DNA from: Desulfobacterales bacterium
GTDB taxonomy: Bacteria > Desulfobacterota > DSM-4660 > Desulfatiglandales > Desulfatiglandaceae
DNA: 40,902 bases
Assembly (NCBI GenBank): GCA_027027005.1
Contig: JALVMN010000120.1
Coordinates: 1-40,902, forward strand
Direction of reading: 5' to 3'
The notes below the pieces were generated by a model, which saw nothing but the letters and a program-made list of their open reading frames with translations, was not told where the DNA came from and did no database searches. This document shows positions 15,310 to 29,293 of this stretch, piece after piece (position 1 is the stretch's first letter; each line of letters starts with the position of its first letter). Made by a program: the position numbers and the translations under genes.

Positions 15310-16401
15310 TCAAACCGTCAAATCCACTATGGATGCAGGCCGCTCCCTACCCAACCCAGGGGGGAGCATAGCTGCAAACTCCGCCTGGTCACAAGAAAAG
15401 CTCCTTAAGGATATCCCCGCCTCCCTCAAGGCCTCATCCAGTTGGCCTATGTTTGCCTCCACCATTCTCTTTGAAGCCTCACTTTCCACTCCCACCATCA
15501 GGTCCAAGAATTTCTCTCCCTCCCCTTCCATGTAAGCCACAACCTCCATCCTGCCCAATCGCGTCAAATTAAGGTGTATTACCAGTCTCAGTCCCCCCTG
15601 CTTTTCACGTTTTACAAATACCCGTGCAAGTTCCAGGTCATGATCCTGGAAAACAGGGATAAAGAAAAGCCACCACTGGATGGCTCCATCCATTTTGAGG
15701 CTCATGACCTGGTGTTGTTGGATTGCCTTTAGCAGTTCTGCCGCCCCTTCTTTGTGCGCTTCTTCCAACCGAGACGCCAGGTCTTGGAGGGCTCCTTTGA
15801 GGTCACTCTGCACCTCTGGCAATTTATCCATGTTGAGGCCTTCAGATACCTTTGCCTCCCAAAACAGCCCTGATCCAAGGATAGTCTCCCTGAGCTGCAC
15901 CGCTCGGGCCTTTGAACTAGGGTCAAAGAGCAGGGTGGAAAGGAGTTTTTCCACTCCCTTGGTGTTACCCATGAATTGAGGCGTTCTTCTCTTGTCACTG
16001 GGCAATGCCTTTATAACACTAATCAGTTCCTTCAAAAGCGATGCAATTCTGGCCTGAGACTCTGTTAAGCTGTTCCAGATATTCATCACCTCCAATGAAT
16101 CGGCCCGACCCACCTGGACCAATTTCAAGACCAGGCCTTGGTCAACACCCTTTACAAGAAAGGAATAGTCATTCCCTGGCACAAGGGTCGGCCGTAGCGT
16201 GCCGCGAAGATCAATGCGGGCGTTAAACTTGTGGCCCCTAAATTGTATCAGCACCCTACCAGGGTCCAACTGCCTCAAGACCCTTGCCTGAATAAGCTTA
16301 CCTCGGGGGATGCTGAGCCCCCCACTTTTCTTGCTGGACGGCAATCCGGGCCGTGAAAAGGCTGGTGGGGATTTACCCACTGTGGGTGGTCTTTTCAGCA
16401 T
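15310..16401 (-). CDS. FliK C-terminal-like / YlqG-like protein
   Basis: A 363-residue protein without signal peptide or membrane segment. The N-terminal 40 residues are basic and Pro-rich. Residues 40-110 (ARVLRQLDPGRVLIQF, FNARIDL) look like a small beta domain. The C-terminal third carries HLNLTRLGRMEVVAYMEG, then VEANIGQLDEALREAGISL. This lines up with the FliK C-terminal pattern in this window's own fliK (HPPELGRLEIRVEV, EGNINQLRQQLSDLGL). Gene order with fhlB mirrors Bacillus ylqG-ylqH. A role in export switching or an accessory hook-length function is an inference; the true hook-length gene is fliK at 31805. Confidence 0.6.
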   Translation of the reverse strand: MLKRPPTVGKSPPAFSRPGLPSSKKSGGLSIPRGKLIQARVLRQLDPGRVLIQFRGHKFNARIDLRGTLRPTLVPGNDYSFLVKGVDQGLVLKLVQVGRADSLEVMNIWNSLTESQARIASLLKELISVIKALPSDKRRTPQFMGNTKGVEKLLSTLLFDPSSKARAVQLRETILGSGLFWEAKVSEGLNMDKLPEVQSDLKGALQDLASRLEEAHKEGAAELLKAIQQHQVMSLKMDGAIQWWLFFIPVFQDHDLELARVFVKREKQGGLRLVIHLNLTRLGRMEVVAYMEGEGEKFLDLMVGVESEASKRMVEANIGQLDEALREAGISLRSFSCDQAEFAAMLPPGLGRERPASIVDLTV

Positions 16402-16402
16402 G

Positions 16403-16927
16403 TCAGCTCAGATTTGGATTGTCCTGACCCAAGGCCCCCTGCCCATCTGCAGGCCAAGCCGAAGAAGTGCTGGGGGAAGGCTGGAGTTTCAGGATCAGGT
16501 CCAGCTCGCCTACAGGGAGAGAGAGACGCTTTGAGATCTGCTCTTTGCTCAGGCCCTCTGCCAGAAGTGTTTCTATGGTCTTTCGAGTCTCCATCATGGC
16601 CCTTTGTCTGGCCTGATTCTGCTGGTGCTGAGTCTTGTATGCCTCAAGCAGTGTGCCCAGCCTCTCTGCAATCTCTTCTGCCTGTTCCAGGCGTTTATCC
16701 AATTCGCCCACAATGGTGTCGGTGAGTCTTTTCTTTTCCTCCAGATTTCTTTCCAGGACTCCCCCGAGGTTGTTGAGTTCCTGGATGAGGGAACTCACCT
16801 CTTCCTGGACCTCCCCTCTCTCAGTGGGGTTGTTTTTTGCGAACCTGGCCCTCAAAAGCATCACTATGACTCCCAGCAGGGCCACATCAATGGCCAATTG
16901 ACTTATTACCCAGAATTTAACTTCCAT
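16403..16927 (-). CDS. DUF2802/SwrB-like single-pass coiled-coil protein
   Basis: A 174-residue protein with an N-terminal membrane helix (VISQLAIDVALLGVIVMLL, about residues 5-25). A long Glu/Leu-rich coiled coil follows (about 45-110). Near the end is a helix-turn-helix-like segment: TIETLLAEGLSKEQISKRL, then SLPVGELDLILKL. This architecture matches DUF2802 proteins in flagellar loci and Bacillus SwrB, which sits after sigD and promotes export apparatus activation. The ATG at 16927 (third residue of the track ORF) is preferred over GTG 16933. It is closely packed between the small charged protein and the FliK-like gene. Function here is inferred from context only. Confidence 0.65.
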   Translation of the reverse strand: MEVKFWVISQLAIDVALLGVIVMLLRARFAKNNPTERGEVQEEVSSLIQELNNLGGVLERNLEEKKRLTDTIVGELDKRLEQAEEIAERLGTLLEAYKTQHQQNQARQRAMMETRKTIETLLAEGLSKEQISKRLSLPVGELDLILKLQPSPSTSSAWPADGQGALGQDNPNLS

Positions 16928-16935
16928 GATCACAC

Positions 16936-17223
16936 TCAGATGAAGATGTCTATCTTCTTGGTGCCATCTTCCTCGTCTGATTCTCGGATCTCCAGGTTAT
17001 CCATTCCCTTCTTGATCCTGTAGATAACCAATTCACCCCCTTGTTTCGGACTCTGAGGTTCTGCTTTCGACCTTAGCTCCTCGTCTTCTTCTCTACCCTT
17101 CTTCCCTCGCCGCTCCTGCTTCTGCTTCCTCTCTTCGGCTTTCCTCTTTGAGGGGGGTTTCCATACCCTTTCGGTGGAAATGTTTTCCACCATCGCAGGG
17201 ATGATTCTAGAGAGATCATCCAT
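16936..17223 (-). CDS. Small highly charged protein of unknown function
   Basis: A 95-residue protein I do not recognise. The centre (about 22-58) is a low-complexity Lys/Arg/Glu run, probably disordered. The C-terminus (ELVIYRIKKGMDNLEIRE, ending KKIDIFI) alternates hydrophobic and charged residues like beta strands. The start is well supported by GGGGAGGG upstream. It lies between the FliL-like gene and the SwrB-like gene, at a place where FlgM would be convenient, but no FlgM-like helices are visible. Real-gene status rests on the ribosome binding site, tight packing and the lack of another ORF. Confidence 0.65.
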   Translation of the reverse strand: MDDLSRIIPAMVENISTERVWKPPSKRKAEERKQKQERRGKKGREEDEELRSKAEPQSPKQGGELVIYRIKKGMDNLEIRESDEEDGTKKIDIFI

Positions 17224-17261
17224 GGCCTATCCCTCCCCTCTTCAGGCTATTTAAGCCCCTC

Positions 17262-18086
17262 TCAGATCACCTTTACATTTCCCACCGTTATTATCAAATC
17301 CTCCACACCCAACGCCCTCTTGGCAGCCTCTGTCAGTGCCTCCCCCATGGTCCTTTTCATCTCCCTTGGGTTTTTACCTTGTTCCAGGAGCCTTACAAGC
17401 ACCCAGTAAAGATCAGCCCTAACCTTGGTCATGTTCTCTTTGAAAAGGACCGAGATCACCTTCTCCCACCTGGCAGTGACCTCCACATAAGCCATCACCT
17501 TCACCCTTTTGGGCTTGGGTTTCCCCTCCCTTTGGGGTAGGGGTACAAAAAAGGGAGCCAGTTTTTCTTCCACCACCCTTCTTTCAATTGGCTTGAGTAT
17601 GACCTTTCGTTCCTTGCGAGGCCCAGGCTCCTCCTGAAAAAAGGTGATGAATCCTACCACGCTCCCCACTACCATCACCACAAGCCCCAATGCATACAGC
17701 AGCCGTCTCTTGGCCTTACCTTTTTTCGGCTTTACTTCTCCGGATGCATGGTCTTCTGATTCCCCTTTGTCCTCGGGCGTAGCCTCAGGCGGCACCTCCT
17801 GCTCCCTTGGCTCCTCCTGGGCCTCGGGAGCCTCCTGGGGTTTTTTCTCTTGCTTTGGTTCTTCCTCTGCCTCCTTTTTTACCTCGTCTAGTGCATCGTC
17901 GATTTCTGAAATGGCCTCATTCTCGGCATCTTCTTTGGGAGGGGTATCAGAAGAATCATCTTCGTGGTCGTCAAGCTCCACCAACTCTTCATTAAGAAAA
18001 TCCGGGGCAGCGGATTCCTCCTCGCCTTGGGCCTCATCTTTTTCGGGCTCTTCTTCAACCACATTTTCGGGGGGATGTTCATTCAC
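17262..18086 (-). CDS. Acidic-tailed, FliL-like single-pass membrane protein
   Basis: A 274-residue protein. Residues 1-115 are extremely Glu/Asp/Pro-rich and likely disordered in the cytoplasm. A basic patch (KPKKGKAKRR) is followed by one membrane helix (LLYALGLVVMVVGSVVGFITFF, about 129-150). The last 120 residues would be periplasmic. They contain FFVPLPQ, then VKVMAYVEVTARWEKVISVL and a helix-strand end (ALGVEDLIITVGNVKVI), laid out like FliL (PMNVFIVNL, LKVKVELEL, final VVQ strand). I therefore suspect a divergent FliL relative that could act at the stator or basal body. Its GTG start overlaps the fliA stop by 4 nt (GTGA) and follows AGGGGG, indicating coupled translation. Function is not established. 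Confidence 0.6.
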   Translation of the reverse strand: MNEHPPENVVEEEPEKDEAQGEEESAAPDFLNEELVELDDHEDDSSDTPPKEDAENEAISEIDDALDEVKKEAEEEPKQEKKPQEAPEAQEEPREQEVPPEATPEDKGESEDHASGEVKPKKGKAKRRLLYALGLVVMVVGSVVGFITFFQEEPGPRKERKVILKPIERRVVEEKLAPFFVPLPQREGKPKPKRVKVMAYVEVTARWEKVISVLFKENMTKVRADLYWVLVRLLEQGKNPREMKRTMGEALTEAAKRALGVEDLIITVGNVKVI

Positions 18087-18880
18087 GGCCTTATCCCCCT
18101 GGTCTCAAAATAACTCTTCATCCTGTTTCGCAGGCGGATTACCGCCTTGGTATGGAGCTGGGATATCCTGGACTCGGTATATCCCATGACCATTCCTATC
18201 TCTTTCATGGTGAGTTCATCATAGTAGTACATGCTCATGACGAGCTTTTCGTTCTGGGGCAGATTCTCAATGGCCTCTGCCAGCACTTGACTCAGCTCCC
18301 TGAAATCGAGATAGGCTGCTGGATCAAACTCCCTGGTGTCTTGGTAGGCCTCCCACAGTCCATTTACCTGTTTGTGAGAGATCAGTTCCCCCAATTCCTC
18401 CTCGTTCAGGATGGCCACACCTCTGGTCTCCTCCAGCATCTGGTGAAATGAGTCCAGGTCCATGTTGAGTTCTTCAGCCACTTCCTTGTCCGTGGCAGGG
18501 GCCATCTTGCGGCTTTCCACCCGTTCGTAGGCCTGCTCCAAGATCTTTGCGTTTTTCCTCACCGAGCGGGGCACCCAGTCCATGGCCCTTAACTCATCCA
18601 GCATGGCCCCGCGAATCCTGAACTCAGCATAGGACTTGAAAGCAACCCCTTTGTCTGGATCAAATTTTTCTATGGCATCCAGCAAGCCCATGATGCCGGC
18701 ACTTACCAGATCGTCCTGATCCACATTAGGAGGGAGCTTCATGGCCAGCCTTCCGGCTATGGTCCTTATGAGCGGAGCATATTTCTCTATGTATTCCTCC
18801 CTCTCGGATGGATCTATTCGCCTTTTTCTTTTTTGCTTTGCCTCATAACCCTTCAGTTTCTTGGTAGCCGTAACAGCCAT
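18083..18880 (-). CDS. fliA: Flagellar sigma factor FliA (sigma-28)
   Basis: A 265-residue sigma-28. Region 2 is clear: IRTIAGRLAMKLPPNVDQDD, then SAGIMGLLDAIEKFDP and FRIRGAMLDELRAMDWVPRS. Region 4 holds the helix-turn-helix LTMKEIGMVMGYTESRISQL. It directs RNA polymerase to late flagellar promoters, and one FliA-like promoter is visible before flgN. It lies 28 bp downstream of flhG in the large motA unit, so it should be made under sigma-54 control. No flgM is seen in the window. Confidence 0.97.
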   Translation of the reverse strand: MAVTATKKLKGYEAKQKRKRRIDPSEREEYIEKYAPLIRTIAGRLAMKLPPNVDQDDLVSAGIMGLLDAIEKFDPDKGVAFKSYAEFRIRGAMLDELRAMDWVPRSVRKNAKILEQAYERVESRKMAPATDKEVAEELNMDLDSFHQMLEETRGVAILNEEELGELISHKQVNGLWEAYQDTREFDPAAYLDFRELSQVLAEAIENLPQNEKLVMSMYYYDELTMKEIGMVMGYTESRISQLHTKAVIRLRNRMKSYFETRGIRP

Positions 18881-27950: not shown

Positions 27951-28469
27951 CTATTGCACTACAAATTCAGTGAAGTAGACATTGTTTATCTTCCCTGTCT
28001 TCAGAAACCGGTTGAGCATGGCGATTATCTCGGCCCTCAACTGGTATTTCCCTGACAGATCACTGATGTCTTCGTAACTCTTGCTGCTGAGCATGGTGAG
28101 AATGGCATCCCTTAGTTGTGGAAGCCTCTTTTCCACCTCGGGCAACAGCTTTTCAGAGTCAAGCTCCAGTTCCACCTTGACCTTCAGATACCTCTTCCCC
28201 ATGGGCTCCATGAGGTTCACTATGAACACGTTCATGGGGTATATGGGCCCGATGTCCGGTTTTTCCTCCTTTTTGGGCTTTGCTGCCAGGGCCTCTTTGT
28301 CCTCTTTACCCAGCCACTTGTCCAGCATTCCCATCTTCCAGGCAGCAGCCCCTCCTCCCCCCAGGAGCACCACCACCAAGACAATGATGATCAATTTCAT
28401 GGGGAAGCCTTTTTTGGGCTTTTCTTCTTCCTCCTGGCCTTCTGCCTCTTTTTTTTCTTCCTCAGCCAT
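27951..28469 (-). CDS. fliL: Flagellar basal body-associated protein FliL
   Basis: A 172-residue FliL that surrounds and supports the stator. The first 22 residues are Glu/Lys-rich and cytoplasmic, then one membrane helix (KLIIIVLVVVLLGGGGAAAW). The periplasmic domain has YPMNVFIVNL, RYLKVKVELELD, LRDAILTMLSSKSYEDI and the closing NNVYFTEFVVQ. It follows motA by 56 bp, where motB would normally lie. Confidence 0.96.
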   Translation of the reverse strand: MAEEEKKEAEGQEEEEKPKKGFPMKLIIIVLVVVLLGGGGAAAWKMGMLDKWLGKEDKEALAAKPKKEEKPDIGPIYPMNVFIVNLMEPMGKRYLKVKVELELDSEKLLPEVEKRLPQLRDAILTMLSSKSYEDISDLSGKYQLRAEIIAMLNRFLKTGKINNVYFTEFVVQ

Positions 28470-28525
28470 GGCTCACTCCCATATTTCTCGATTTTCCAAT
28501 TAAAGCTTTGACAAGTTTCTTCACA

Positions 28526-29293
28526 TTACTGGTTGAATGAACTCTGCCTCAACTGCGGTGGTAAGTAGGCGTTGAGTTTCTGCTCTATGACCCTGGGATT
28601 TTCTCCCTTGGCAATGGAGATTATCCCTTCCATCATCAACTCCTTCATCATGACCTCTTCCTTGCTCCTGTTCTTCAGCTTTCCGGCGATGGGCAGAAAA
28701 ACGATGTTTGCCATAACAGCACCATAGAAGGTGGTAAGAAGGGCCACGGCCATTGCAGGACCAATGGTGCTGGGATCACTCATGGTCTGAAGCATCTGCA
28801 CAAGACCGATTAGTGTCCCGATCATGCCCAAAGCCGGGGCAAATGTGCCGAACGTGGTAAAGATCTCGGCCCCCAGTTTGTGCCTCTCCTGTATGGCATC
28901 TATTTCGGTCTCAAGGATTTCCTTGATGGCCCCAGGTTCCAGCCCGTCCACCGAAAGCTGCATCCCCTTTTTCATGAACTCATCGTCCATCTCCCCTATC
29001 TTGGCCTCTAGCGCCAGTATGCCTTCCCGGCGTGCAATGCCTGCTAGGTTTACGAAATTGGCGATCAACTCTGTGGGTGTGAGCTTTTTCATGAAAAAGG
29101 CATTCTTCACCACATTGACCACCTTCAACATGTCTGGAAGAGGATAGTTGATCATGGTAGCCCCTATGGTTCCCCCCACCACAATCATCACCGAAGGGAT
29201 GTTTATGAAGATGCTCAGACTACCACCCATGAGGATGGCCGACAGCACCAGGGCAAATGCCAGAACTATGCCGATCAAGGTGGCAATATCCAT
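28526..29293 (-). CDS. motA: Flagellar motor stator protein MotA (PomA-like)
   Basis: A 255-residue stator subunit with four membrane helices. The start MDIATLIGIVLAFALVLSAI and the helix-3 segment FAPALGMIGTLIGLVQMLQT are characteristic. The charged cytoplasmic loop includes IARREGILALEAKI, the region that interacts with FliG. The N-terminus is closer to PomA/short MotA than to enterobacterial MotA, but I cannot assign proton or sodium use. It is the first gene after a consensus sigma-54 promoter and is not followed by motB. Confidence 0.95.
   Translation of the reverse strand: MDIATLIGIVLAFALVLSAILMGGSLSIFINIPSVMIVVGGTIGATMINYPLPDMLKVVNVVKNAFFMKKLTPTELIANFVNLAGIARREGILALEAKIGEMDDEFMKKGMQLSVDGLEPGAIKEILETEIDAIQERHKLGAEIFTTFGTFAPALGMIGTLIGLVQMLQTMSDPSTIGPAMAVALLTTFYGAVMANIVFLPIAGKLKNRSKEEVMMKELMMEGIISIAKGENPRVIEQKLNAYLPPQLRQSSFNQ

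Follow-up and report, generated by a model that had tools for sequence, protein, structure and literature searches.

A diverged FliL paralogue and a small protein with a FliK-type tail, encoded behind fliA: candidate stator and export-switch components in Desulfobacterota

FliL is known to have the stomatin fold (PMC6426602), and according to published deletion analysis the cytoplasmic end of FliL affects motor output (PMC10127578). More than one FliL per genome has been described in R. (Cereibacter) sphaeroides and among the Bdellovibrio paralogues (PMC10746153, PMC11323537, PMC10954123). For another flagellar protein, FliK of Salmonella, the five C-terminal residues matter when export switches, and A405V, which changes the last residue to valine, is a suppressor (PMC10965912). 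In a 2026 paper, FlhB-CCD is what this pentapeptide is proposed to engage (PMC13344023). There is still debate over how the tail brings about the switch in export.

SwrB is a membrane-anchored export activator of B. subtilis. FipA, a membrane protein that binds FlhF, is encoded right behind the flhA-flhF-flhG-fliA operon in Vibrio, and is marked by the spaced residues G110, E126, and L129 (PMC11620751). FipA, defined by DUF2802, was described from gammaproteobacteria; a FipA-like protein is encoded behind fliA in many Desulfobacterota.

The window (the whole 40,902-nucleotide stretch of DNA analysed, from a Desulfobacterales bacterium) carries a block of flagellar genes on the minus strand, as judged by open reading frames and domain annotation. 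The first part of the block reads fliK, flgD, flgE, motA, fliL, fliM, fliN, fliO, fliP/Q/R (labelled by position), flhB, flhA, flhF, fleN, and fliA. Behind fliA come a 274-residue gene, a 95-residue gene, a FipA-like gene, a second fliK, flhX, flgF, flgG, flgA, flgH, flgI, and onwards. The features discussed here are:

17262..18086, minus strand: FliL paralogue of 274 aa, called FliL2; a disordered, acidic tail in the cytoplasm (residues 1-128), membrane helix (about 129-150), periplasmic SPFH/FliL domain (about 170-274)
16936..17223, minus strand: disordered charged protein, 95 aa, C-terminus KKIDIFI; FliK-type C-terminal pentapeptide
16403..16933, minus strand: FipA-like protein (176 aa) with an N-terminal membrane helix, a coiled coil and, from residue 127, the motif G-x15-E-x2-L in its C-terminal part
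15310..16401, minus strand: second FliK-like protein, 363 aa, C-terminus IVDLTV; PF02120, 47 bits
15028..15306, minus strand: FlhX (92 aa), a free-standing C-terminal domain of FlhB; matches PF01312 at 77 bits over profile positions 262-334 of 335
18083..18880, minus strand: fliA (sigma-28); Pfam sigma-70 regions 2 and 4 above cut-off
27951..28469, minus strand: canonical fliL; PF03748, 93 bits
23090..24154, minus strand: canonical flhB, proposed target of FliK-type tails; PF01312, 431 bits
31805..33475, minus strand: canonical fliK, 556 aa, C-terminus LVHVVA; PF02120, 79 bits

The original prediction, made from the letters of the window, described an acidic FliL-like protein and a charged partner, and both reading frames were found at the coordinates and on the strand that it gave. 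The 274-residue frame begins with GTG at 18086, shares the four bases GTGA with the end of fliA, at its stop, and is preceded by AGGGGG; the 95-residue frame begins with ATG at 17223, 38 bases past the preceding stop, behind a strong ribosome binding site, GAGGGGAGGG. The good ribosome binding sites and the coupled or tight spacing noted earlier are thus borne out, as is the ordinary fliL within the same unit. Both genes are also kept in place beside fliA in other genomes, which shows that they are not chance reading frames and is the basis for regarding them, as had been proposed, as probably functional motor or regulatory parts. The source metagenome-assembled genome comprises 403 contigs with an estimated contamination of 8.9%, and because the genes are conserved in many other genomes an assembly artefact is very unlikely.

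The acidic stretch of the 274-residue protein, first put at about 115 residues, extends over residues 1 to about 128. Residues 1-131 hold 35 Glu and 13 Asp against 13 Lys and 3 Arg, for a net tail charge of -32. The single membrane helix, also as predicted, starts near residue 129; the basic segment KPKKGKAKRR just before it fits an N-inside topology, so that the protein has the single N-terminal span of a FliL. Pfam and NCBIfam searches gave neither a FliL match nor any other curated family match for this protein, whereas the proteins in the same slot of three genomes of the order score above the PF03748 cut-off (G055, 38.3 bits; G047, 30.8; G026, 30.6), each in addition to a normal fliL.

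The periplasmic domain had been called FliL-like by its pattern, and structure and profile comparison confirm that judgement. An AlphaFold2 model of residues 120-274, computed from an alignment of 15 same-slot proteins, has pLDDT 86 and pTM 0.63. Without exception, the best 19 Foldseek matches to the PDB are SPFH domains of stomatin or periplasmic domains of FliL. The FliL targets (6ahq, 7sgn, and 9hmf) give TM-scores to target of 0.60-0.74, as expected of an SPFH-type periplasmic fold; 7sgn, from H. pylori, reaches 0.74, and 9hmf, from C. jejuni, 0.72. E-values are modest (1e-3 to 5e-2), and the top match is the mouse stomatin SPFH domain, slightly ahead of FliL by E-value. In hhalign, with the alignment trimmed to the 105-residue domain and the FliL profile widened, the domain family matches FliL at 97.3% (E 2.7e-11), and eight unrelated flagellar profiles reach at most 0.6%; a run with longer alignments that included the membrane flanks gave just 10-16%. 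A PDB sequence search with the FliL-like profile returned no credible match. Among the slot proteins, F179 is invariant and R223 nearly so. Together, sequence and model argue strongly for a diverged FliL paralogue rather than a standard family member; the name reflects a protein that lacks a PF03748 match of its own but is joined to FliL at 97% by profile comparison.

This slot is old in the group. Of 85 genomes in the order, 16 are positive with the domain profile, and in every one the gene lies immediately downstream of fliA. The 16 are precisely the genomes whose fliA is of the close type (E about 1e-88 or better). Among them, G072 and G076, which were outside the search alignment, score 110 and 92 bits. 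A wider sample of 80 further loci, taken via fliA and read gene by gene, has acidic-tailed one-span proteins in the slot, sometimes after a cheY-like gene, in several Desulfobacterota groups; PF03748 matches at E 0.1 or better in 25 of 48 such slot proteins. By sequence, diverged forms of FliL2 occur across Desulfobacterota. Since these forms and all 16 close-fliA-type members of the order hold the slot, it is read as the long-established, constant position of a second FliL. The pair had been described as inserted after fliA, but is instead part of a conserved block. The literature covered consists of open-licence papers, so an earlier account of the slot may exist.

The tails differ between families. 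Net charge runs from -23 to -45 in the family of the window, and from -1 to -14 in a sister family (f2); canonical FliL tails, of 4-36 residues, are near neutral. A motif of the type F..(G)xELDE lies at residues 30-45 of the 274-residue protein and in the tails encoded at five other loci (L055, L057, L058, L059, and L062). Its F..ELDE form is present in 13 of 48 acidic tails (1.6 expected from shuffles), which by sequence makes it a real feature of part of the FliL2 family, not a general one.

No motB lies between motA and fliL (28469-28526 in the window); the motB pair of this genome is on another contig (G000:C271). Two adjacent motB genes are found in relatives (L204 in G048, L085 in G047) and in the genome itself (L199). 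In G048 and G047 the partner on the motA side lacks the plug-helix Asp (VMTVSLFLILLTFF vs VTFSDLVMLLLTFF), which suggests an asymmetric stator there; both copies in the present genome keep the Asp. A link between tandem motB pairs and the second FliL was tested and dropped, as genomes that lack FliL2 can have such pairs too.

The 95-residue protein is of a different kind. Its AlphaFold2 model (pLDDT 59) has no secondary structure, and it is predicted to be disordered. No Pfam or NCBIfam family was found for it, and a search of viral contigs gave no match to it. The same-genus orthologue is 49% identical and ends in the identical KKIDIFI; beyond close relatives the middle of the protein cannot be aligned. 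When 14 divergent homologues are aligned, D92 is the sole invariant column; it lies in the one constant feature of the family, the C-terminal pentapeptide [IV]D[ILV]x[IVA]. A small reading frame with this kind of tail (searched as a terminal [IVLM]D[IVLM]x[IVLMA], with no residue after it) precedes 28 of 33 FipA-like genes, against 0 of 755 larger control reading frames and 0 of 1375 small frames on the opposite strand; as the homologues share ancestry, these counts measure conservation and not independent events. Members of the family are encoded even at loci that lack the FliL paralogue, and the gene found most consistently beside them is the FipA-like one.

That tail resembles the end of FliK. 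E. coli FliK ends in GVDIFA, and the likeness between IDIFI and VDIFA is one of sequence only; the T3S4 core domain (PF02120) gives no match in the 95-residue protein or in 13 homologues. A looser alternating-hydrophobic tail is present in 23 of 24 FliK-like proteins of these loci and 25 of 30 canonical FliKs of the phylum, with the Asp as well in 9 of 24 and 9 of 30, respectively; other reading frames have none (0 of 38). This FliK-like tail, along with a nearby second FliK and a free FlhB C-terminal domain, is why the protein is proposed to act on the export switch, a testable reading. Five residues can converge, however, or could bind a partner other than FlhB. Nor does the second FliK or FlhX seem to be required as a neighbour, since neither was detected in the fetched loci of several relatives that hold the small gene beside the FipA-like gene (L067-L076).

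A comparable arrangement lies elsewhere. A third FliL-domain protein (PF03748, 31 bits; L081:6317-6802 and L082:6787-7275) is encoded opposite a 75-residue protein (L081:5919-6146 and L082:7372-7599) whose C-terminus, RIIDFYV, or QLIDIYV in G019, again is FliK-like. These genes adjoin what looks like a PilZ-type protein.

The main rival concerns the FipA-like neighbour. The 176-residue protein has weak matches to DUF6115 and DUF2802, below both Pfam cut-offs (11.2 bits for DUF2802, PF10975, against a cut-off of 33.5). It does have the FipA arrangement of G, E (+16), and L (+19), with G at residue 127, behind an N-terminal transmembrane segment and a coiled coil judged from sequence; the G-x15-E-x2-L motif recurs in 30 of 33 homologues. 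The 95-residue protein might then serve as a cofactor for this protein and for the placement of flagella by FlhF. Its C-terminal strand would bind the FipA-like protein or FlhF, and its likeness to FliK would be either coincidental or owed to a shared docking partner. The FipA-like gene is indeed the most constant neighbour, including at loci where FliL2, the second FliK, and FlhX were not detected, and FipA acts with FlhF and has its gene directly after the flhA-flhF-flhG-fliA operon in Vibrio (PMC11620751). What is conserved in the small protein, however, is the tail, of a class shown by FliKs and by essentially no other protein of these loci, and this role is judged unlikely, though a serious contender.

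The remaining rivals fare worse. The acidic tail of FliL2 was originally suggested to bind the charged protein as an acidic-basic pair, and the adjacent, closely spaced genes and the strongly acidic tail would suit such a partnership. Yet the small protein is near neutral (net charge +1 here; mean +2, sd 6, range -10 to +19 at 42 loci), its gene is present where FliL2 is missing altogether, and f2 members with short, weakly charged tails still carry it. With the FipA-like gene as its steadiest neighbour and a FliK-type tail as its conserved part, the pairing is improbable. It is very doubtful that the FliL-like protein serves another membrane process, as a general stomatin-like scaffold merely co-transcribed with fliA: the leading mouse stomatin match favours this, but the gene is always in the flagellar unit behind fliA and same-slot relatives score as FliL. 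A FlgM-like anti-sigma factor would likewise be a disordered protein of about 95 residues near fliA, and no FlgM (PF04316) was found in this genome, possibly through incompleteness, as a genome of the same genus (G001) has one. The 95-residue protein has no FlgM match in Pfam or NCBIfam, and relatives with the small gene also have a normal FlgM (for example G001, G019, G042, G045, and G049); replacement of FlgM was rejected on this coexistence, and a FlgM-like role is scarcely credible.

The preferred reading, in which a second FliL serves the stator and a protein with a FliK-type tail works on the export switch, is given about even weight. The two genes would encode separate flagellar parts made from one co-translated block, not a bound pair. 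Like FliL, FliL2 would use its periplasmic SPFH domain to join or cap the stator at MotB, either by itself or together with the normal copy. Its long, disordered acidic tail would extend on the cytoplasmic side, close to the stator and C-ring. FliL2 might assemble into a separate ring, share one with FliL, or act at only some of the stators. The 95-residue protein would be a disordered carrier of the FliK-type switch pentapeptide, and the FipA-like membrane protein may keep it at the basal body. Its C-terminus may dock on the FlhB C-terminal domain or on FlhX, encoded three genes downstream, and thereby tune or compete with the early-to-late export switch of FliK, in whichever direction.

More tentatively, and with somewhat less than even weight, Desulfobacterota may use the FliK switch pentapeptide on a separate, small, unfolded protein without a ruler, so that switching is set by competition or cooperation among several tail-bearing proteins (two FliKs and the 95- and 75-residue proteins) for the FlhB C-terminal domain and FlhX. 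If so, a natural tail-only protein near a free FlhB C-terminal domain isolates the switch step in a form that can be tested with peptides. The long acidic tail of FliL2 likewise offers a natural variant for asking what the cytoplasmic end of FliL does.

Compared with known systems, FliL2 shares with FliL (V. alginolyticus 6ahp/6ahq, H. pylori 7sgn, and C. jejuni 9hmf) one membrane span, an SPFH-type periplasmic domain, a flagellar operon, a conserved F near the domain start, and an R before the central helix. It differs in its cytoplasmic tail (49-232 residues, mostly acidic, against 4-36 in sampled canonical FliLs), in its low identity to the known structures (about 10-14% in structural alignments), and in being an additional copy behind fliA. 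The FliL2 of C. sphaeroides belongs to a separate flagellar system (Fla2), whereas here the extra copy has a constant position in the main flagellar cluster, the one that contains the canonical fliL as well. With the FliK tail, the 95-residue protein shares an alternating hydrophobic C-terminal pentapeptide, often with D at -4; unlike FliK, it has neither the T3S4 core domain nor ruler length. The 176-residue neighbour shares with FipA (DUF2802) and SwrB an N-terminal membrane helix and a coiled coil, and with FipA the G...E..L spacing and a place downstream of flhA-flhF-fleN-fliA; unlike the genes of FipA and SwrB, its gene is preceded by one for a tail protein, not by chemotaxis genes.
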